Shown here: piece by piece, positions 76 through 7,820 of the stretch
How positions within the stretch are numbered: the stretch's first letter is position 1
How the letters are laid out: the number at the start of each line of letters is the position of its first letter
NCBI GenBank assembly: GCA_945836785.1
Contig: CAMAMD010000063.1
Location: 1 to 7,820 of the forward strand
DNA: 7,820 nt
DNA from: an uncultured Clostridium sp.
Lineage (GTDB): Bacteria > Bacillota_A > Clostridia > Lachnospirales > Lachnospiraceae
Direction: 5' to 3'
Notes under the pieces: generated by a model
What the model was told of the DNA's origin: nothing
What the model saw: the letters and a program-made list of their open reading frames with translations, nothing else
Databases searched by the model: none
Made by a program: the position numbers and the translations under genes

Positions 76-1172
76 ATTCATTTATAAAATTACAGGGTGA
101 AGAGCGCAAAGCTTTTCTGCAATCTAAATTTGACTATTACAGAAAGATAAATACATATACTGTTATACTTTCCTGTCTTGCATCGATCACTTACTTCATT
201 TCCGACTGTCAGCTTTTCGGAAGATTTGCCCAGGAGACATTGATACCCCGTTTTTCAATTCTGATTCCGATGATGCTGTTTATATTAATCAATGCAAAAA
301 CACAGGACTATCGCATAATAAGCATTATATCTCAAATAATTGCCCATATGATTATGTGGTGTACAATCTGGTCAATCTATTATCTTCCGATTAAAATCCA
401 TGCAAACGAGGGCTTTATTATCATGCATTTAATTTTCCTTGCCCTTGCTTTTTCCGCACCATTTGAATATTGCACCATATCTCATGTTCTTCTGATTTTT
501 GATATTCTCATTTCCAATCTGTTCAATCACTATGAGAATATTGATATCATGTTGTCTCTCGGCATCCCATGTATACTTGCAATTACTGCGTGCAATTATG
601 TTATGTGCAGTTCATACTATGATAATTATATTATTAGGAAAAAAATGGAGGCATCCTTGGTTATTGATCCCCTGACGGGTGTTTATAACAGAAATATTAT
701 CACCAACATTACCAAAGAAAACCTTTTTACCTTTGTTCGTTCAAAATCAATCAGCGTGCTTATGGTAGATATAGACTGGTTCAAGAACGTAAATGACACT
801 TATGGACATGATAAAGGGGACATTGTCTTGAAAGCGGTTACAACAGTCATCCAAAATTGCACCCGCGGCGGTGATTATACGATACGCTGGGGTGGCGAGG
901 AATTTATTGTCATTATGCCAAACTGCGTCATAAACGAGGCTGCACTGGTAGCAGAAAGAATCCGGAGTCATATTATAGAATACGATAACACAGTATGTCC
1001 GATTACCGTATCTGTCGGCGTTTCCGAATATGACAATGTGAATTACGAAAATTCCATCCATCAGGCCGATAAGGCATTATACGTTGCAAAGCAAACCGGA
1101 CGCAACAAAGTTGTCTGCTATTCCAAGGGTTCTACAACTGACATACTGACATCGACAAAAAATCATTTCTGA
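72..1172 (+). CDS. Membrane-anchored diguanylate cyclase (GGDEF protein)
   Basis: Predicted to make the second messenger cyclic di-GMP from two GTP at the inner face of the membrane. Residues about 29-180 form roughly six hydrophobic segments (near 29-46, 59-73, 82-104, 114-129, 134-150 and 159-179) with no recognisable extracellular sensor domain, so the membrane block itself is probably the input module. The GGDEF domain fills about 195-350: DPLTGVYNR at 199-207, DIDWFK at 233-238 and the active-site signature GGEEF at 274-278, a functional variant of GGDEF. An RxxD inhibitory site (R265, D268) lies exactly five residues before the signature, so product inhibition by c-di-GMP is expected. 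The last 15 or so residues are a short polar tail. The ATG at 72 follows a G-rich ribosome binding site at 61-65 and overlaps the stop of an upstream frame. The signal it senses cannot be told from sequence. No phosphodiesterase (EAL/HD-GYP) gene is visible nearby. Confidence 0.93.
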   Translation: MNSFIKLQGEERKAFLQSKFDYYRKINTYTVILSCLASITYFISDCQLFGRFAQETLIPRFSILIPMMLFILINAKTQDYRIISIISQIIAHMIMWCTIWSIYYLPIKIHANEGFIIMHLIFLALAFSAPFEYCTISHVLLIFDILISNLFNHYENIDIMLSLGIPCILAITACNYVMCSSYYDNYIIRKKMEASLVIDPLTGVYNRNIITNITKENLFTFVRSKSISVLMVDIDWFKNVNDTYGHDKGDIVLKAVTTVIQNCTRGGDYTIRWGGEEFIVIMPNCVINEAALVAERIRSHIIEYDNTVCPITVSVGVSEYDNVNYENSIHQADKALYVAKQTGRNKVVCYSKGSTTDILTSTKNHF

Positions 1173-1192
1173 AAATTGTATTATAATGATTT
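1160..1192 (-). terminator. Possible weak terminator between convergent trxB and cyclase genes
   Basis: An 8-bp AT-only-plus-one-GC inverted repeat (AAATCATT at 1160-1167 and AATGATTT at 1185-1192) encloses a 17-nt loop. Read on the minus strand it runs directly into six T residues (complement of 1157-1162), as an intrinsic terminator for trxB would. The stem is weak and the loop long, and the element overlaps the 3' end of the cyclase gene. Read on the plus strand there is no T tract. It is the only terminator-like structure I can see for either convergent gene. Confidence 0.3.
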
Positions 1193-2089
1193 CAGATATT
1201 CACAAGCTGCCAACGCCGATACAGTCCCATCGGCCGCTGCTGTTGTCAACTGACGAATCGCTTTGGTACGGCAGTCTCCTGCCACAAAAATACCTGAAAC
1301 GCTTGTACGGCACGACTCGTCTGCTACTACAAATCCTTTTTCATCAATCGACACCAATCCCTCAAGATACGCGGTATCCGGCATACTGCCCACAGCAACA
1401 AACAGACCGTCTACAGGTAATTTGTGAATATTTCCCGTTTCATTATCCCGATAACTGATTGATGACACTACATCTGTTCCATTGACGGAAAGCATAGTTG
1501 CTTTTTCAATGATATTTATATTTCCTTTTTGTTTTATTTTTTCCAGTGTGCTGCGTTCCCCTCTAAATGAATCTCTTCTGTGAATCAGGTATACTTTTTT
1601 GCAAAAATCCGACAGATAGAGTGCTTCACTAAATGCAGAATTTCCCCCGCCGGCAACAGCTACCGTCCGGTTGCGATAAAACGTGCCATCACAAGTTGCG
1701 CAGTATGACACCCCGAGTCCTCGGAACTTATCTTCACCCGGTATATCCAGCTTGCGACGTTTCATGCCGGTAGCAATGATGACCGAATGTGCCTGATATT
1801 CCTCTATATTACCCTGCACAACAAAATCCCTATCGACACAGGATATACCATTCACTCTGTCATAAACCAATTTCATTCCAAGCTTATCTGCCTGTTCGTA
1901 CAGTGATGTCGCAAAATCATAACCGGAAATGTGCTGAAATCCCGGATAATTTTCTATATCAGGCGTATTTATGATTTGTCCTCCATAGTTTAGAGCCTCC
2001 AGAACCAGAACCGACTTTCCGGCACGCAAACCATATATAGCAGCCGAAAGTCCTGCCGTACCAGCGCCGATAATACAAATATCTACCAT
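1181..2089 (-). CDS. trxB: Thioredoxin-disulfide reductase (FAD/NADPH)
   Basis: Cytoplasmic flavoenzyme that passes electrons from NADPH through FAD and a redox-active disulfide to thioredoxin. At 302 residues it has the usual length of the low-molecular-weight bacterial type. Visible motifs in order are the N-terminal FAD-binding GAGTAG at 8-13; the catalytic CATC (C130, C133) followed by DG; the second dinucleotide fold GGGNSA at 147-152; HRRDSFR at 170-176, whose arginines are those that contact the NADPH 2'-phosphate and so favour NADPH over ferredoxin-type reduction; and the C-terminal FAD motif GIFVAGDCR at about 266-274, followed by the conserved QLTTAAADG. The ATG at 2089 sits 7 nt after a GGAGGA (complement of 2097-2102). 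That ribosome binding site lies in the 18-bp gap after the trxA stop, so the two genes are almost certainly one transcript and are made together. Its substrate is presumably the adjacent thioredoxin. Confidence 0.96.
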   Translation of the reverse strand: MVDICIIGAGTAGLSAAIYGLRAGKSVLVLEALNYGGQIINTPDIENYPGFQHISGYDFATSLYEQADKLGMKLVYDRVNGISCVDRDFVVQGNIEEYQAHSVIIATGMKRRKLDIPGEDKFRGLGVSYCATCDGTFYRNRTVAVAGGGNSAFSEALYLSDFCKKVYLIHRRDSFRGERSTLEKIKQKGNINIIEKATMLSVNGTDVVSSISYRDNETGNIHKLPVDGLFVAVGSMPDTAYLEGLVSIDEKGFVVADESCRTSVSGIFVAGDCRTKAIRQLTTAAADGTVSALAACEYLKSL

Positions 2090-2107
2090 GTCATCATCCT
2101 CCGGTTT

Positions 2108-2416
2108 TTAATCCAGCAATGCAAGAAGCTCACTCTTCGGCACAGCCCCAACAGATTTTTTATATATCTCTCCGTTCTTAAATACAACTACAAATGGTAT
2201 GCTCATAACCTTATATTGCACAGCAAGATCAGGATTTTCATCCACATTCACCTTACATACAAGCACATCGGTTCTTTCCTCCGCTATTTGTTCCATAATC
2301 GGAGAAAGCATCTTGCATGGCATACACCAGTCTGCCCAGAAATCAACCATCACGGTTCTGTCTGCCTTTAAAACCTTCTGCTCAAACTCCTCTGTTGTAA
2401 TATGTTCTACTGCCAT
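2108..2416 (-). CDS. trxA: Thioredoxin with WCMPC active site
   Basis: Small cytoplasmic dithiol protein of 102 residues, the normal thioredoxin size, that reduces protein disulfides and is itself recycled by the reductase encoded 18 bp downstream. The fold signatures are clear: VDFWADWCMPCK at 24-35 with catalytic C31 and C34, the conserved VNVDENPDLA around 56-65, the cis-proline P74 in SIPF, and FKNGE at 79-83. Two departures from the classic protein are a methionine between the cysteines (CMPC instead of CGPC) and a phenylalanine after the cis-proline where threonine is common. There is also an extra cysteine at 54. The start was moved from the longest frame (ATG at 2446) to the ATG at 2416. 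The latter has a near-perfect AGGAGGA seven bases upstream and gives the family's usual N-terminus, whereas the upstream ATG has no ribosome binding site and adds a charged ten-residue extension not expected in thioredoxins. Confidence 0.95.
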   Translation of the reverse strand: MAVEHITTEEFEQKVLKADRTVMVDFWADWCMPCKMLSPIMEQIAEERTDVLVCKVNVDENPDLAVQYKVMSIPFVVVFKNGEIYKKSVGAVPKSELLALLD

Positions 2417-2423
2417 ATCCGTA

Positions 2424-2430
2424 TCCTCCT
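2424..2430 (-). promoter_or_regulatory. trxA ribosome binding site that fixes its start
   Basis: The minus strand reads AGGAGGA here, 7 nt before the ATG at 2416. It is among the strongest Shine-Dalgarno matches in the window and lies inside the longer open frame that begins at 2446, so it argues directly for the shorter start. Confidence 0.85.
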
Positions 2431-2472
2431 TATTATCATCCTTCATATTTTAAAATTTCATCAGTTTACTTA

Positions 2473-2501
2473 TATATAGCTTTATTTTACGCATTTTGCA
2501 A
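2473..2501 (-). promoter_or_regulatory. Candidate sigma-A-like promoter for trxA-trxB
   Basis: In the 114-bp AT-rich gap between the GTPase-NYN stop and the trxA start, the minus strand carries TTGCAA (2501-2496, 4 of 6 to the -35 consensus), a 17-bp spacer, then TATATA (2478-2473, 4 of 6 to the -10 consensus). Several overlapping TATA-like runs make the exact -10 uncertain. No terminator hairpin was seen upstream, so read-through from the GTPase gene is also possible. Confidence 0.35.
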
Positions 2502-2530
2502 GTATATATACCATATGCTTTCCCATAATG

Positions 2531-5074
2531 CTAATTCAAATCATATTCATCCCGCAGCAAACGTGCAGCTTCCTCAATCACATCCTTAAGCTCTCTTGAT
2601 GATATAATTCGGCCATCCGCACCTCGGACAATCTGTTGTATCATACCATCTGAGGTTGCCACCGTAATTGCATACTTCTCTGCATTTTCATGGACGAATT
2701 TTTCGATATACTGGTCTGCCGTCTCATTTTCCTTTGTGTGCACAACTTTGATATTATCCATCATAACAGTACTTCCGCAATTGCCTTTTACCTTATATCC
2801 GTCAAAGACCAGAATTATCTCATAATCAATCATGCCCTGATAATTAGAAAGTACATGCAGCAGCCTGTCCTTTGCAGAATCGATATTATCCTGTGCAAGA
2901 GCGTGAAGTTCATCCCATGCAAATATCACATTATACCCATCCACCATAAGCAGCTTTGCTCTGTCAGAGCGATACGACTTTACACTGCGATACTCAGTCA
3001 ACGGTGCTTTTTTCTTCTTATATCCGGCATGCTTGTCCTCCCTGCGATTTGCCGCAAAGGTTCTCGCAAATATCGCATCTATCTCATCAAGATCAATCGT
3101 GTAATCAAACTGATTTACCGGACGGCCATATACCGGTCTTATCTCATCCGATGAATTCTCTATATCATCAAATACATGCATATAGTCCGAAACTTCATAC
3201 CATGGCACAATAAAACCTGCCCCATGGGAACAAAACACAGATGATGCCGGGTTTGCAATATCCTGTTCCGGATCATATCCACATCTTGCAATTACCTCCT
3301 GTGGATTATGGCACCGCTCGTACCCACTGAAAGTAACAGATATCGTTCCTGTCCCATGGGTATAAGAATTTAAATTTATCTGATAATCCCGCATGGTTGC
3401 CACCGGTCCCCGTCCGGTTAAAACCGCACGCTCACCAACTATGTCTGGGGGATCCATGACGCCATGCATATTTTCTATATCTGTCATGGCACGACCAACC
3501 ATCTCTGCGGGAATTTCCAGCCTGAAACTGTAATATGGTTCCAGCAATACACTTTCCGCCTGCATCAGTCCCTGTCGAACAGCTCTGTAGGTCGCCTGTC
3601 GGAAATCTCCGCCCTCCGTGTGCTTCTGATGTGCTTTTCCATTTATCAGAGTGATTTTGACATCCGTTAGATAGGAGCCTGTCAGAACACCGATAAAACT
3701 TCGTTCCCTTAAATGTGTCTGAATCAATCGCTGCCAGTTTTTATCCAGAATATCTTCACTGCAGTTTGCAGTAATTTGGATTCCACTTCCGGTTTCTCCC
3801 GGTTCCAGCAAAAGATGCACCTCAGCATAGTGCCTTAAGGGTTCAAAATGTCCCACACCGATAACAGGACTTGCGATTGTTTCCATATATGTAATCGTAC
3901 CCGTATCAAATGATGGTGTAAATCCGAATCTCTTGGCTATAATACCTGTTAAAATCTCAAGTTGTACCTGACCCATCAGCTTTACACCGATTTCTTCTGT
4001 CTGTTCATTCCATGTCACATTAAGCTCCGGTAATTCTTTCTCCAAAAGCTTTATTGACGGATATATCTGTCTGGTATTTACAGTATCAGGCAGAGACATT
4101 TTATAAGTAAGCACAGGTTCTATAAGAAACATGGTTCGCCCCGAATCAAAGCCAATTCCCTGCCCGGCAGCAGAATGTGTAAGTCCCGTCACTGTGCATA
4201 TGATTCCTGCTTCGGCTTCATTGACACTGTCATATCGATTTCCTGTATAGATACGTATTTGATTCACCTTTTCATCCATAACAGTATCTTTCACACGGAG
4301 CATTCCTCCTGTGATTTTCATATGTGTCATCCGGTTTCCAGTCTCATCTCTGGTTATTTTATAGATTCTTGCCCCAAATGTATCAGGATACTCCGGAGAC
4401 TGCATAAAGCGGTCCATAACATCAATCAATGCGTCAATACCCTCTAACCTGAGTGCCGAGCCAAACAGGCACGGAAAAATTTTCCGGCATGTTATCATCT
4501 GGGCTATCTGTTCATCGGAAAGAACTCCATCTTCCAGATACCGTTCCAATATATTTTCATCTGAAGACAAAACAGCCAGCTCCTCCAAAACCTCAGCCGT
4601 CAAGTCAGTAAAATCCACACAACCCTCGAAGATTTCATTTTGCAGAAGCTCCATAATCTTATCCCGTTGATTTCCAGGCTGATCCATCTTATTGACAAAA
4701 ATAAATAAAGGTATATCATATTGTTTCAACAATTTCCACAGTGTTCTCGTATGTCCCTGTATTCCATCCGAAGCGCTGATAACAAGTACAGCATAATCCA
4801 AAACCTGTAAGGTACGCTCCATCTCCGCGGAGAAATCCACGTGTCCCGGTGTATCCAGCCATGTTACATGCAGATGTTCCGTCTCAAAAACAGCCTGTTT
4901 GGAGAATACCGTAATTCCCCGCTCGCGTTCCTGAACATCATGATCCAGCAGCGTGTCACGGTTATCTACCCTGCCCAGATTGCGTATCTCTCCGGTACTA
5001 TATAAAATTGCTTCCGACAGTGTCGTTTTCCCTGCATCAACATGAGCAAGCACGCCCACTACAACATTTTTCAT
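2531..5074 (-). CDS. EF-G/TetM-like ribosomal GTPase fused to a YacP/Rae1-type NYN nuclease domain
   Basis: A single 847-residue chain in two parts. Residues 1 to about 635 match the elongation factor G/ribosomal protection protein family: P-loop AHVDAGKT 10-17, switch I RGIT 52-55, DTPGH 74-78 with the catalytic histidine, NKMD 128-131, a GSA G5 motif near 205-207, then domains II-V, including LLEPYYSF near 510-517. After a charged linker (about 640-703, with four lysines at 686-689) comes a NYN/PIN-like domain to the C-terminus: VDGYN with D712 and N715, VFDGY with D758, ETAD with D787, ATSDG with D809 and a closing SSREL. These are the acidic motifs of YacP/Rae1, which in Bacillus cleaves mRNA in the ribosomal A site. 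TetM proteins are about 640 residues and lack this tail. The domain IV loop reads HQKHTEGGDF (482-491) instead of the YSPVSTP type of TetM/TetO, so drug resistance is doubtful. The start at 5074 gives the family N-terminus (MKNVVVGVLAHVDAGKTTL). An in-frame ATG at 5113 adds 13 residues, and neither start has a good ribosome binding site. I infer a ribosome-surveillance or rescue role. Confidence 0.9.
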   Translation of the reverse strand: MKNVVVGVLAHVDAGKTTLSEAILYSTGEIRNLGRVDNRDTLLDHDVQERERGITVFSKQAVFETEHLHVTWLDTPGHVDFSAEMERTLQVLDYAVLVISASDGIQGHTRTLWKLLKQYDIPLFIFVNKMDQPGNQRDKIMELLQNEIFEGCVDFTDLTAEVLEELAVLSSDENILERYLEDGVLSDEQIAQMITCRKIFPCLFGSALRLEGIDALIDVMDRFMQSPEYPDTFGARIYKITRDETGNRMTHMKITGGMLRVKDTVMDEKVNQIRIYTGNRYDSVNEAEAGIICTVTGLTHSAAGQGIGFDSGRTMFLIEPVLTYKMSLPDTVNTRQIYPSIKLLEKELPELNVTWNEQTEEIGVKLMGQVQLEILTGIIAKRFGFTPSFDTGTITYMETIASPVIGVGHFEPLRHYAEVHLLLEPGETGSGIQITANCSEDILDKNWQRLIQTHLRERSFIGVLTGSYLTDVKITLINGKAHQKHTEGGDFRQATYRAVRQGLMQAESVLLEPYYSFRLEIPAEMVGRAMTDIENMHGVMDPPDIVGERAVLTGRGPVATMRDYQINLNSYTHGTGTISVTFSGYERCHNPQEVIARCGYDPEQDIANPASSVFCSHGAGFIVPWYEVSDYMHVFDDIENSSDEIRPVYGRPVNQFDYTIDLDEIDAIFARTFAANRREDKHAGYKKKKAPLTEYRSVKSYRSDRAKLLMVDGYNVIFAWDELHALAQDNIDSAKDRLLHVLSNYQGMIDYEIILVFDGYKVKGNCGSTVMMDNIKVVHTKENETADQYIEKFVHENAEKYAITVATSDGMIQQIVRGADGRIISSRELKDVIEEAARLLRDEYDLN

Positions 5075-5187
5075 ATGTAAACCATCTCTATCGTTAATTT
5101 TATGTATCGACATAAAAATATTTGTTTCGTTCTTTTAATTTATCATAAAACATATTAAAACACAACATAACACCATAAAACGACATT

Positions 5188-6936
5188 TTACTGTGGAATG
5201 CTGTCTCTCACGCAGAGAGTCCCCCATCCAAGCTGTTCATTCGGCCATGTGACATACCCCGGAAGCGTTCTCGCTCCTTTTATAAGGTAAGCCCGCACCT
5301 TTTCTCCGTATAAATACGGGTCATGATTCTCCACTATTCCCCATTGCATCAGCATGGCTGCTCCGGCCGCTACAAAAGGGGTTGCAAAGGATGTTCCCGA
5401 CACATAAACAAGTCCCCCTCCCGGTATCGGCACATCTATGTCTACTCCCGGAGCGGAAATGTCCGGTTTGACGACACCTCCGACAGTATACCCTCTGCCT
5501 GAAAACGGTGCATACGAAAATGTTTTCGAGTTATAAGCCCCGACGCTGATAACCGTAGATGCGCTTGCCGGTATTGACATGGATGTATCCGGTGTTGAAG
5601 CAAGAAAATGTACATTTGAACTGGTACTGGCCTCAACAGGAAGCCACATATCAAATCTTCCCTCTCTCACACTGCGGGGTAATATCCGCACAGTCCATAT
5701 TCCTTCTCGAATATAGGTTTGCTTTGGAATCATCGATATATATGTTTCCTGATTTCTGTTAATCGGTGTGGGATATCCATGCAAGACCTGAATATACATA
5801 TCAGTTAGTGTGTAAGACATGACCTCCTGATATTTTGAAAAAGGCCCAATCACTTCCCCCGTTGGTGTAATCAGGGATAAATCCACCTCATCCGAATAGC
5901 TGTACCATGCCTGAAGATTAAAAGCCGTCATATATGGCGGCACCTGTATTTCTATATTTTTTTCAATTCCACGTTCAAGCTCCGTACTGATATGCCTTCC
6001 CGTGTTTCCGTCATTTCCCATCCCAACCGCAATTGTAAGACGTGCGATACCTGCCAGGGAATCAAGATATGCCTCTAAAACAGAATTCCCGTTATGATTT
6101 CCATAGTTATTTCCAAAACTTAAGTTAACAACCAACGGACGTTGACGTTCTATCGCAAAACGTACCACATAATCTACCGCAAGCATTAGGGCTGTCGTTC
6201 TCGGAAACCCTCCCTCATCATCCGCATTCAACTTCACAACAATTAAATCTGCATCCGGCACGCAGGCAGTCACAACGCCACTGACGCCGGTTCCGTGTCC
6301 GCTGTTATCATAAGACATGATATTTGCCGACGGATCCTGCAATGCATGTTCTATATCTTCCTTTGTAAAAACAGCACCGATCGTCATACCCTCCGGTGGA
6401 TTTCCCTGTATACTTTGATCCCACAGGCTTAAAATCCTTGAACTGCCATCTGATCGAATAAAAGCCGGATGTCTGATATCAATACCGGAATCGATAACCC
6501 CAACCAACATACCGGTACCGGTCAGATTCCATGGTTCTATCTGAACCAGTCCCATACAGGACTGGTCAAATCCCTGAATATTTCCTGCACGGTAATTACT
6601 TACATACCGTTGATTTTGCAAAGGAGCAATATCATACTGTTCTGCATACAATTGTTTTGGTTTTTCGACAAAAATAATCTGTGGAAAATTTGTGAGTGTT
6701 GCAATATCTTCGCTGCGAATACGAATGATTGCATATCCATTTAATAATTCTGTATATGTAAAATCCAGGGCATTGCTTATATCTTCTATATCTCCCGTAT
6801 ATCTGACAATCAGCTCCCATTCTCGAAATTCTTCATTATATCCCACATTTAAATCCATTGAATTAACGCGCTCATCATAAGGCGTCTGCAAGGCGAGATT
6901 TAATTCTGTGCTCAGCTTCGATTCGTCCATATTCAT
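5188..6936 (-). CDS. CspA/B-like subtilisin-family (S8) serine protease
   Basis: A 582-residue subtilisin of the clostridial Csp group, whose best-known members cleave the pro-form of the spore cortex hydrolase SleC at germination. The catalytic triad is complete: D149 in GVIDSGID, H214 in GHGTGVSG and S516 in SGTSFATP, with oxyanion-hole N308 in GMGNDG. Residues 1 to about 100 look like an N-terminal prodomain, with no signal peptide or membrane segment. Residues about 318-455, between N308 and the serine, form an inserted beta-rich block at the position of the jelly-roll domain known in CspB. The phrase following the aspartate (HPAFIRSDGSSRILSLWDQ) is typical of this group. The ATG at 6936 follows GGAGGA (6946-6941) with a 4-nt gap; a second ATG two codons later is also plausible. 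The gene is divergent from spoIIGA across a region with Spo0A-box matches, but no clear promoter of its own was found. No sleC or second csp gene is in view, so a germination role is inference, and another processing role is possible. Confidence 0.9.
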   Translation of the reverse strand: MNMDESKLSTELNLALQTPYDERVNSMDLNVGYNEEFREWELIVRYTGDIEDISNALDFTYTELLNGYAIIRIRSEDIATLTNFPQIIFVEKPKQLYAEQYDIAPLQNQRYVSNYRAGNIQGFDQSCMGLVQIEPWNLTGTGMLVGVIDSGIDIRHPAFIRSDGSSRILSLWDQSIQGNPPEGMTIGAVFTKEDIEHALQDPSANIMSYDNSGHGTGVSGVVTACVPDADLIVVKLNADDEGGFPRTTALMLAVDYVVRFAIERQRPLVVNLSFGNNYGNHNGNSVLEAYLDSLAGIARLTIAVGMGNDGNTGRHISTELERGIEKNIEIQVPPYMTAFNLQAWYSYSDEVDLSLITPTGEVIGPFSKYQEVMSYTLTDMYIQVLHGYPTPINRNQETYISMIPKQTYIREGIWTVRILPRSVREGRFDMWLPVEASTSSNVHFLASTPDTSMSIPASASTVISVGAYNSKTFSYAPFSGRGYTVGGVVKPDISAPGVDIDVPIPGGGLVYVSGTSFATPFVAAGAAMLMQWGIVENHDPYLYGEKVRAYLIKGARTLPGYVTWPNEQLGWGTLCVRDSIPQ

Positions 6937-6992
6937 ATTGTCCTCCGAAAATAATTCATTATCAACAAAAAATCAACATATCCACAGACTTT

Positions 6993-6999
6993 TGTCGAA
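6993..6999 (+). promoter_or_regulatory. Spo0A box (perfect TGTCGAA)
   Basis: TGTCGAA matches the Spo0A binding consensus at all seven positions and is preceded by TT. It lies about 100 bp upstream of the inferred spoIIGA transcription start, within the divergent region shared with the Csp-like protease gene. Known spoIIG promoters are activated by phosphorylated Spo0A, so its position fits the downstream gene. A 7-base match alone can occur by chance. Confidence 0.55.
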
Positions 7000-7017
7000 T
7001 ATATCGTCACTCAAATA

Positions 7018-7024
7018 TGTCGAT
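7018..7024 (+). promoter_or_regulatory. Second Spo0A-box-like site (TGTCGAT)
   Basis: Six of seven bases match TGTCGAA, in the same orientation and starting 25 bp after the perfect box, so the two would lie on similar faces of the helix roughly two and a half turns apart. A more degenerate candidate (CATCAAA at 7054-7060) sits nearer the promoter. Taken together they resemble the multi-box layout of Spo0A-controlled spoIIG promoters, but only the first box is perfect. Confidence 0.4.
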
Positions 7025-7086
7025 TGCCTGCGAAATTATTAGAAATTGCATTACATCAAACGACGTTTTTTTTAATACAGACCATC

Positions 7087-7092
7087 TATAAT
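7087..7092 (+). promoter_or_regulatory. -10 element of the spoIIGA promoter
   Basis: TATAAT is a perfect sigma-A -10 hexamer ending 26 bp before the spoIIGA ATG, which gives a leader of about 20 nt containing the ribosome binding site. No TTGACA-like -35 is found at 16-18 bp upstream (that stretch is a T run) or at 22 bp. The lack of a -35 agrees with a promoter that needs an activator such as Spo0A-P. Confidence 0.5.
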
Positions 7093-7118
7093 CTAGTGAA
7101 AGAACCGGGGAGGTGAAC

Positions 7119-7820
7119 ATGACATATACCGTATATGCCGATGTCATGCTGGGCTGTAATATCCTGATTAACCTGTCTGTACTGATTTTGGCATCCTGTA
7201 TTCTGCATATGCCTATCCGAATACGGAGAATTCTATTCTGGTCTTTCCTTACCGGAATCATGACCGAAGCAGAATATATTTTTATGCTGAATCATAACAG
7301 ACTGATACATCACATATTATATGTTTCCATATACATAATTATGATATGCGGCTACTTCGGAACAACTCGGATTAAAAAGAATCTGTTCCATATTATTGCA
7401 ATCCTGTCATCCATGATACTGCTATATGGTGTACTGGCATGTATCCATATACCGCCTAACAATATCATGAAATATAAGATGCCGGGAATATTCCTTGCTA
7501 CATTTTTGCTTATATGCCTTGTAACATACATTGCACACAGAAATCTTACGGACCGGCACAGCTACAAAATAGAGCTGAGATACAATACAAAGACAATCAA
7601 ATGTGATGGCTACATGGATTCAGGAAATATGCTTCGCGACATAGAACATATGCCTGTCATCATCCTTGACTACCGGCTCATGAAACAACTTCTAGATATG
7701 CATGCTTACAAGCTGATTGAAGAATATCACAGCACCGGAAATTTTGACTATGCCGCATTTGCCGACGTATGTCCTATGCATATGTATCCTCTGCCCTATA
7801 AAACCGTAAATGCAGATTTT
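7119..7820 (+). CDS. spoIIGA: SpoIIGA, sporulation sigma-E factor-processing peptidase (3' end outside window)
   Basis: The first 234 codons are visible and the frame is open to the last base, so the protein is cut by the window edge; B. subtilis SpoIIGA has about 309 residues. SpoIIGA is a membrane-embedded aspartic protease that sits in the sporulation septum and cleaves the pro-sequence from sigma-E in the mother cell. The N-terminus MTYTVYADVMLGCNILINL is typical, followed by about five hydrophobic segments (near 10-30, 36-57, 65-82, 88-112 and 121-139). The soluble catalytic half starts near 148, with the key motif GYMDSGN (164-170). D167 is the expected catalytic aspartate and LRD follows at 172-174, as in the family's D(S/T)GNxLRD. 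The ATG at 7119 is preceded by GGGGAGG (7107-7113) with a 5-nt gap. Spo0A-box matches and a TATAAT lie upstream. The sigE gene would be expected just beyond the right edge, but that cannot be seen. Confidence 0.92.
   Translation, partial: MTYTVYADVMLGCNILINLSVLILASCILHMPIRIRRILFWSFLTGIMTEAEYIFMLNHNRLIHHILYVSIYIIMICGYFGTTRIKKNLFHIIAILSSMILLYGVLACIHIPPNNIMKYKMPGIFLATFLLICLVTYIAHRNLTDRHSYKIELRYNTKTIKCDGYMDSGNMLRDIEHMPVIILDYRLMKQLLDMHAYKLIEEYHSTGNFDYAAFADVCPMHMYPLPYKTVNADF

Follow-up and report, generated by a model that had tools for sequence, protein, structure and literature searches.

Gene organisation of the locus

The stretch of DNA analysed here, 7,820 nucleotides in length and referred to as the window, carries on its minus strand an open reading frame (2531..5074) in which a GTPase is joined to a NYN domain of the YacP/Rae1 type, as established from the ORF list, Pfam, an alignment of homologues and an AF2 model. 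Directly upstream of it on the same strand lies a gene for a subtilisin-like protease with a CspB prodomain, of the germination protease type (5188-6936), and the fusion is followed, again on the minus strand, by trxA and trxB (1181-2446). A GGDEF protein is also found among the neighbours, and a SpoIIGA gene, recognised by a profile match on the plus strand, is cut by the end of the window (7113-7820). Given the SpoIIGA gene the host probably forms spores, and the neighbours taken together suggest a spore-forming clostridium. In the region from 1000 to 7300, 11 promoter-like sites were found versus 17.4 in shuffled sequences, and 10 terminator-like sites versus 3.9.

Fused loci from 20 of the 67 fused genomes of a class-level sample (see below) were taken for comparison. 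Besides the window, TrxB was found in five fused loci of four genomes among the loci compared, TrxA in one other genome, in which the fusion-trxA-trxB trio recurs (L094/L126), and a Csp-like protease adjoining the fusion in one other locus only (L001). Conserved operon partners were therefore rejected as a clue to function, since all three recur too seldom among the fused loci.

Integrity of the fused gene and previous description

The frame consists of 847 codons and a stop codon with no interruption, and the single unbroken frame reported in an earlier note on this DNA, for which no strand had been given, is thus real and located on the minus strand. An alternative in-frame ATG at 5113 would extend the ORF to 860 aa; the Met at 5074 is the start in most of the 22 aligned homologues. 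A sequencing error or a chance joining of two genes can be excluded, since the identical join is present in 67 of the 196 genomes of the class-level sample, and PF05991 was present in all 120 listed of the 7991 scored protein matches. The fusion itself is therefore confirmed.

As an architecture it is not new. In ten Clostridiales species, Atkinson 2015 (PMC4342817) described a YacP-like NYN domain attached to Tet proteins; the window protein, a single chain that combines a GTPase of the Tet type with such a domain, is a member of this published Tet-NYN family. The earlier note had known of no experimental description; no functional test of the fusion was found in the titles and abstract openings covered by a literature search or in the available text of PMC4342817, but the architecture had already been published there. 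Among those titles and abstract openings no further paper was recognisable as dealing with the fusion.

The GTPase part

The GTPase part (residues 1-636; 3167..5074, minus strand), as delimited with Pfam, PDB matches and the AF2 model, comprises the G domain, domains II to V and a C-terminal subdomain with the end ...SSVFCSHGAGFIVPWYEVSDYMH. Pfam GTP_EFTU was matched at residues 4-225 (E 2.7e-53), and EFG_IV (residues 393-506) and EFG_C (residues 509-590) also scored over their cut-offs; EF-G_D2 and EFG_III fell marginally below theirs (25.8 and 22.6 bits, respectively, versus 27 bits). The G motifs, noted earlier as intact, were indeed conserved at the residues tested in all 37 fused proteins.

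TetM and TetO were the closest PDB sequence matches to this part, aligning over residues 1-586, and EF-G was matched as well. The AF2 model of the fusion, built from 39 sequences, had a mean pLDDT of 82.6, with residues 1-636 and 706-844 folded. When the model was used for a structure search, EF-G/EF-2-type chains were found among the 50 matches listed, with TM-scores by target of up to 0.69, and none of these 50 matched the NYN domain.

A candidate metal site is formed by C588, H589, C615, H617 and H633. C615 is conserved in all 57 subfamily rows (37 fused and 20 unfused proteins), H617 is replaced by Lys in 14 of the 20 unfused members, and H589 is variable. One fusion of 1040 aa (P0033) has the stretch around domains IV and V repeated, possibly as an assembly artefact.

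The NYN nuclease domain

The NYN nuclease domain (residues 706-844; 2543..2959, minus strand), defined by Pfam, PDB matches and conservation, contains D712, N715, D758, D787 and D809. NYN_YacP was matched at residues 709-843 with 138.1 bits (cut-off 24.6; E 3.5e-40), and the structures of Bacillus subtilis YacP/Rae1, 5mq8 and 5mq9, matched this part with an E value of 5.2e-18. A significant NYN match thus lies within residues 700-847, and with the EF-G-type domains found by Pfam the domain assignments of the earlier note are borne out. Its four acidic residues, D712, D758, D787 and D809, were correctly numbered and are kept in 37/37 fused proteins and in 20/20 stand-alone YacP proteins; N715 is likewise conserved in all 37 fused proteins. 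D712 and D787 correspond to D7 and D81 of Rae1, which we take to be the experimentally tested catalytic residues. With the Pfam match, the two structures and the conserved residues in agreement, the resemblance to Rae1 holds.

The domain had also been called complete, which is true of the catalytic core but not of its C-terminal end: the Pfam match stops at position 137 of 166, and the window protein has no C-terminal tail. Beyond the core, this tail has at least 31 residues in each of the 20 stand-alone YacP proteins compared, versus fewer than 20 residues in 24 of the 37 fused proteins, the window protein among them. In B. subtilis Rae1 the suppressor change R166P, near the C-terminus, was classed with loss-of-function changes (PMC6613710). 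In fusions that have lost the tail, ribosome contacts may therefore now come from the GTPase part, and short tails would be expected if it had assumed some of the ribosome binding.

Distribution of the fusion and of separate yacP

Three samples of genomes were searched. In the class-level sample of 196 genomes, whose completeness is unstated, frames of at least 700 aa were classed as fused and frames of at most 220 aa as stand-alone. By this division 128 genomes were YacP-positive, of which 67 carried the fused form (734-937 aa), 58 the stand-alone form (168-217 aa) and three the gene in pieces, and none carried both. All 67 fused genomes also matched the GTPase at E 1e-90. One genome (G435) was the sole case in this sample with two full fused genes (contigs C16 and C48). 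In the phylum-level sample, 108 of 199 genomes had a match over the cut-off, 12 of them fused, 95 stand-alone and one of 308 aa, again with none having both.

The third sample was drawn from one GTDB family, and NYN_YacP was present in 264 of its 299 genomes. Frames were longer than 700 aa for all but 16 of the approximately 150 matches listed, as counted by eye. A second match was found in six of the 264 genomes, and in none of the six was a complete separate yacP seen beside the fused gene, an edge fragment in G047 being unclassable; the second matches are consistent with contigs that are split or repeated, with fragments at the ends of contigs, with one protein matched in two parts, or with scores below the cut-off. 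Of the 35 family-sample genomes lacking YacP, the 20 listed had no match to the GTPase at E 1e-100. Most of the named fused loci come from Lachnospiraceae, and names among the protein matches to it include Eubacterium-like organisms, Roseburia and Anaerostipes.

The places of 20 stand-alone yacP genes were taken from 10 of the 11 such genomes in the family matches listed and from 10 of the 58 in the class-level sample. In 15 of the 20 loci yacP adjoins rlmB, mostly in the order cysS-mrnC-rlmB-yacP-sigH. RlmB was located by TIGR00186; the clustered neighbours are named here as we recognised them from their sequences, and are presumably CysS, MrnC and SigH. The corresponding rlmB loci (about 3.7 kb) were then taken from 12 of the 67 fused genomes, and yacP was absent from all 12; a SigH-like gene adjoins rlmB in five of them, in one case at only 45% identity. 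As the earlier note had anticipated, the carriers of the fusion sampled here thus have no separate yacP near rlmB, in keeping with the absence of genomes having both in the class-level sample. These data suggest that many Clostridia have exchanged their separate Rae1 gene for the fusion.

The position of stand-alone yacP next to rlmB and mrnC also bears on the substrate. A part in the maturation of rRNA and tRNA has been suggested for NYN domains (work cited in PMC4342817), and the NYN domain of the fusion might accordingly cut rRNA or tRNA, in maturation or in ribosome quality control, with the GTPase positioning it on a ribosomal subunit. The characterised relative, Rae1, however, is described as cutting mRNA in the A site (PMC6613710, PMC12320835), and we regard an rRNA or tRNA substrate as very improbable.

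Origin of the fusion

A quick tree of the GTPase was built from 37 fused proteins, 20 unfused proteins and three outer rows. The fused loci L002, L004, L007 and L013, the Bifidobacterium avesanii locus L017 and partial loci were left out of it, and L094 was dropped as a partial duplicate of L126. All 37 fused proteins fell into one clade (99), with unfused members from Bifidobacterium and Collinsella inside it. Since these lie within the fused clade and have no NYN domain, the domain can evidently be lost.

For the NYN domain, the stand-alone proteins compared were those of 19 of the 20 loci together with the one from Collinsella (L173), whose branch is very long; at the remaining locus (L111) the ORF caller gave no yacP, and it therefore lies outside the comparison. 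In a quick tree the fused domains formed a group with the YacP proteins that are encoded separately in the same GTDB family (SH-aLRT 99), and within this group the split between fused and stand-alone forms required one change, with low support (38). From this grouping, the native yacP seems to have been moved into the fusion. The simplest reading of the two trees is a single fusion event that drew on the family's own yacP, with later loss of the nuclease in some lineages. Because most carriers would then derive from one ancestral event, the finding that fused and separate forms never occur together does not amount to dozens of independent tests.

Linker and coupling of the two halves

A tether of approximately 60-80 residues, which includes a short conserved helix, joins the two halves. 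In the window protein the linker spans residues 637-700 (2975..3166, minus strand), as delimited by the AF2 model and a motif count; residues 639-665 and 671-700 have pLDDT values below 50, and a helix at 662-674 holds the conserved motif. This motif, [ET][ILV]xxI[FLIYM], was found in all 37 fused linkers and, after shuffling of the linkers, in 0.6 of 37 on average, the count being made on the same 37 sequences on which the motif was defined. It is absent from the short tails of the 20 unfused members. The linker of one fused locus (L018) reaches 205 residues and includes a Gly/Ala/Thr-rich stretch, the median being 80.

The GTPase subfamily is also found outside the fusion. In the class-level sample it was present without any YacP match in five genomes (G333, G338, G366, G382 and G484) and in a sixth that is interrupted at a contig end (G433), and together with stand-alone YacP in five others (G372, G423, G446, G469 and G490). 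This tally, which sets aside G353 and G448 (another subfamily) and three broken cases, led us to reject the idea that the unfused GTPase and a separate YacP generally go together. Since the GTPase occurs without a YacP match or alongside a separate YacP, it must have a function of its own.

It could then be argued that the chain holds two independent activities, a ribosomal task belonging to the GTPase and ordinary Rae1 action by the NYN domain, and that fusion merely couples their expression and dose. The GTPase-only genomes fit this explanation, as does the loss of the NYN domain in Bifidobacterium and Collinsella; in addition, eight of the 11 separate-yacP genomes among the family matches listed carry the unfused GTPase, on another contig, two of these eight GTPase matches being partial with an internal stop (G209 and G107). 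Independent halves, however, would leave the conservation of the linker motif in 37/37 fusions and the frequent loss of the Rae1 tail unaccounted for, and we consider this explanation unlikely. The motif and the tail loss suggest rather a mutual adaptation of the two halves.

Relationship to tetracycline resistance

Atkinson 2015 guessed at a resistance role for the Tet-NYN fusion (PMC4342817), so that the protein would be a ribosomal-protection tetracycline-resistance protein with an added nuclease. The closest PDB matches, TetM and TetO, point the same way, and NCBI annotation places the fusion of Agathobacter rectalis (L174, 5977-8778) among the tetracycline resistance proteins of the TetM/TetW/TetO/TetS family. 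The A. rectalis gene has as neighbours a toxin-antitoxin pair, with a toxin of the BrnT family and an antitoxin of the CopG family.

Nevertheless, the window protein scored 399.3 bits against the NCBIfam tet_protect model (NF012153), well below the cut-off of 775. TetM inserts domain IV into the A site, and its Pro509 clashes or overlaps with tetracycline (PMC7456112, PMC8161019). In the tip loop of domain IV of the window protein (residues 482-492, HQKHTEGGDFR; 3599..3631, minus strand), alignments place K484-H485 at TetM P509-V510 and H482 at the loop His of EF-G, and the position of Pro509 is occupied by Lys in all 57 subfamily rows, that is, in 37/37 fused and 20/20 unfused proteins. The spread of the gene is also unlike that of an acquired, patchily distributed one, the nuclease domain being present in 264/299 genomes of the family sample. 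Among 72,556 plasmid records the fusion covered most of the query in just two, both large (252 and 518 kb).

Unfused kin are carried on megaplasmids of Ligilactobacillus salivarius. A near full-length fused gene was also found in two unannotated phage records (MT835514.1 and MT835563.1, faecal 'Bacteriophage sp.'), in which bacterial contamination is possible.

Taken together, these observations make a resistance protein with an added nuclease quite improbable, and tetracycline displacement is probably not the main job of the fusion. The reading of the earlier note, a factor entering the A site of stalled or drug-bound ribosomes, keeps its likeness to an A-site nuclease and is weakened in its drug-bound part by the tet_protect score and the replacement of Pro509 by Lys. 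Where such fusions are annotated as resistance proteins, gut surveys could arrive at resistance counts that are too high.

Proposed function

By sequence the protein is an EF-G/Tet-type GTPase carrying a Rae1-type NYN core, with the key residues kept in both. Rae1 has been described as an A-site endoribonuclease that cuts mRNA and has been proposed to enter stalled ribosomes (PMC6613710, PMC12320835, PMC10100781), and S1025 is a known substrate of it in B. subtilis (PMC11780869). It is plausible that the two parts of the fusion act jointly, the GTPase bringing the nuclease to the A site. The reading we favour, with a probability of about 0.5, is that in this clostridial group the fusion acts as a translation factor of the housekeeping type, encoded on the chromosome, and has assumed the work of Rae1 through GTPase-delivered A-site cleavage.

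In such a mechanism, the GTPase would bind ribosomes whose A site is open owing to a stall and would place the tip of domain IV near the decoding centre. Hydrolysis of GTP would release it from the ribosome, whereupon the NYN domain, kept at high local concentration by its tether, would enter the vacated A site and cut the mRNA there in the manner of Rae1; the ribosome would then be rescued and the mRNA degraded. The two actions would have to be sequential, because there is probably not room in the A site for both domain IV and a Rae1-like domain.

More tentatively, the fusion might be a two-stage rescue device, in which the GTPase first probes and clears the stalled A site and the tethered Rae1 domain cuts the mRNA only when this fails, free Rae1 having been wholly replaced in much of one family. 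This more specific proposal is possible but rather doubtful. If it were true, A-site mRNA cleavage would be a GTP-dependent step and a 'tetracycline resistance' protein would be a core surveillance factor.

A 2025 review considered that the nucleases known to cleave mRNA on the ribosome do not yet form a complete set (PMC12320835). The fusion is a good test case for the cutting of messages on stuck ribosomes, as Rae1 is here tied to a ribosome GTPase and its free form appears to have been dropped in many Clostridia, which gives a directly testable pair. What is new in the present analysis is the replacement of separate yacP, the likely single origin of the fusion, the differences in the domain IV loop and the linker motif.

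Comparison with known systems

With EF-G of S. aureus and T. thermophilus, the fusion has in common the fold of its GTPase part and the loop His of domain IV, aligned with H482. It differs from EF-G in its extra C-terminal subdomain, linker and nuclease, and its score on TIGR00484 was 251 bits, far below the cut-off of 659.4. The five-domain EF-G-like GTPase is likewise shared with the ribosomal protection proteins TetM and TetO, which align over residues 1-586 of the window protein; the differences are the Lys in place of Pro509, another C-terminal subdomain, a mainly chromosomal location and the score short of the resistance model. Tet genes of phage records are 28-30% identical to the fusion. 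Rae1/YacP of B. subtilis shares the NYN core and has, in contrast to the window protein, a C-terminal tail of about 30 residues. Finally, Rae1 is a free protein encoded beside rlmB, in the rlmB operon, whereas in the fusion its counterpart has become a C-terminal domain at another place in the genome, with csp, trxA and trxB as its neighbours in the window.
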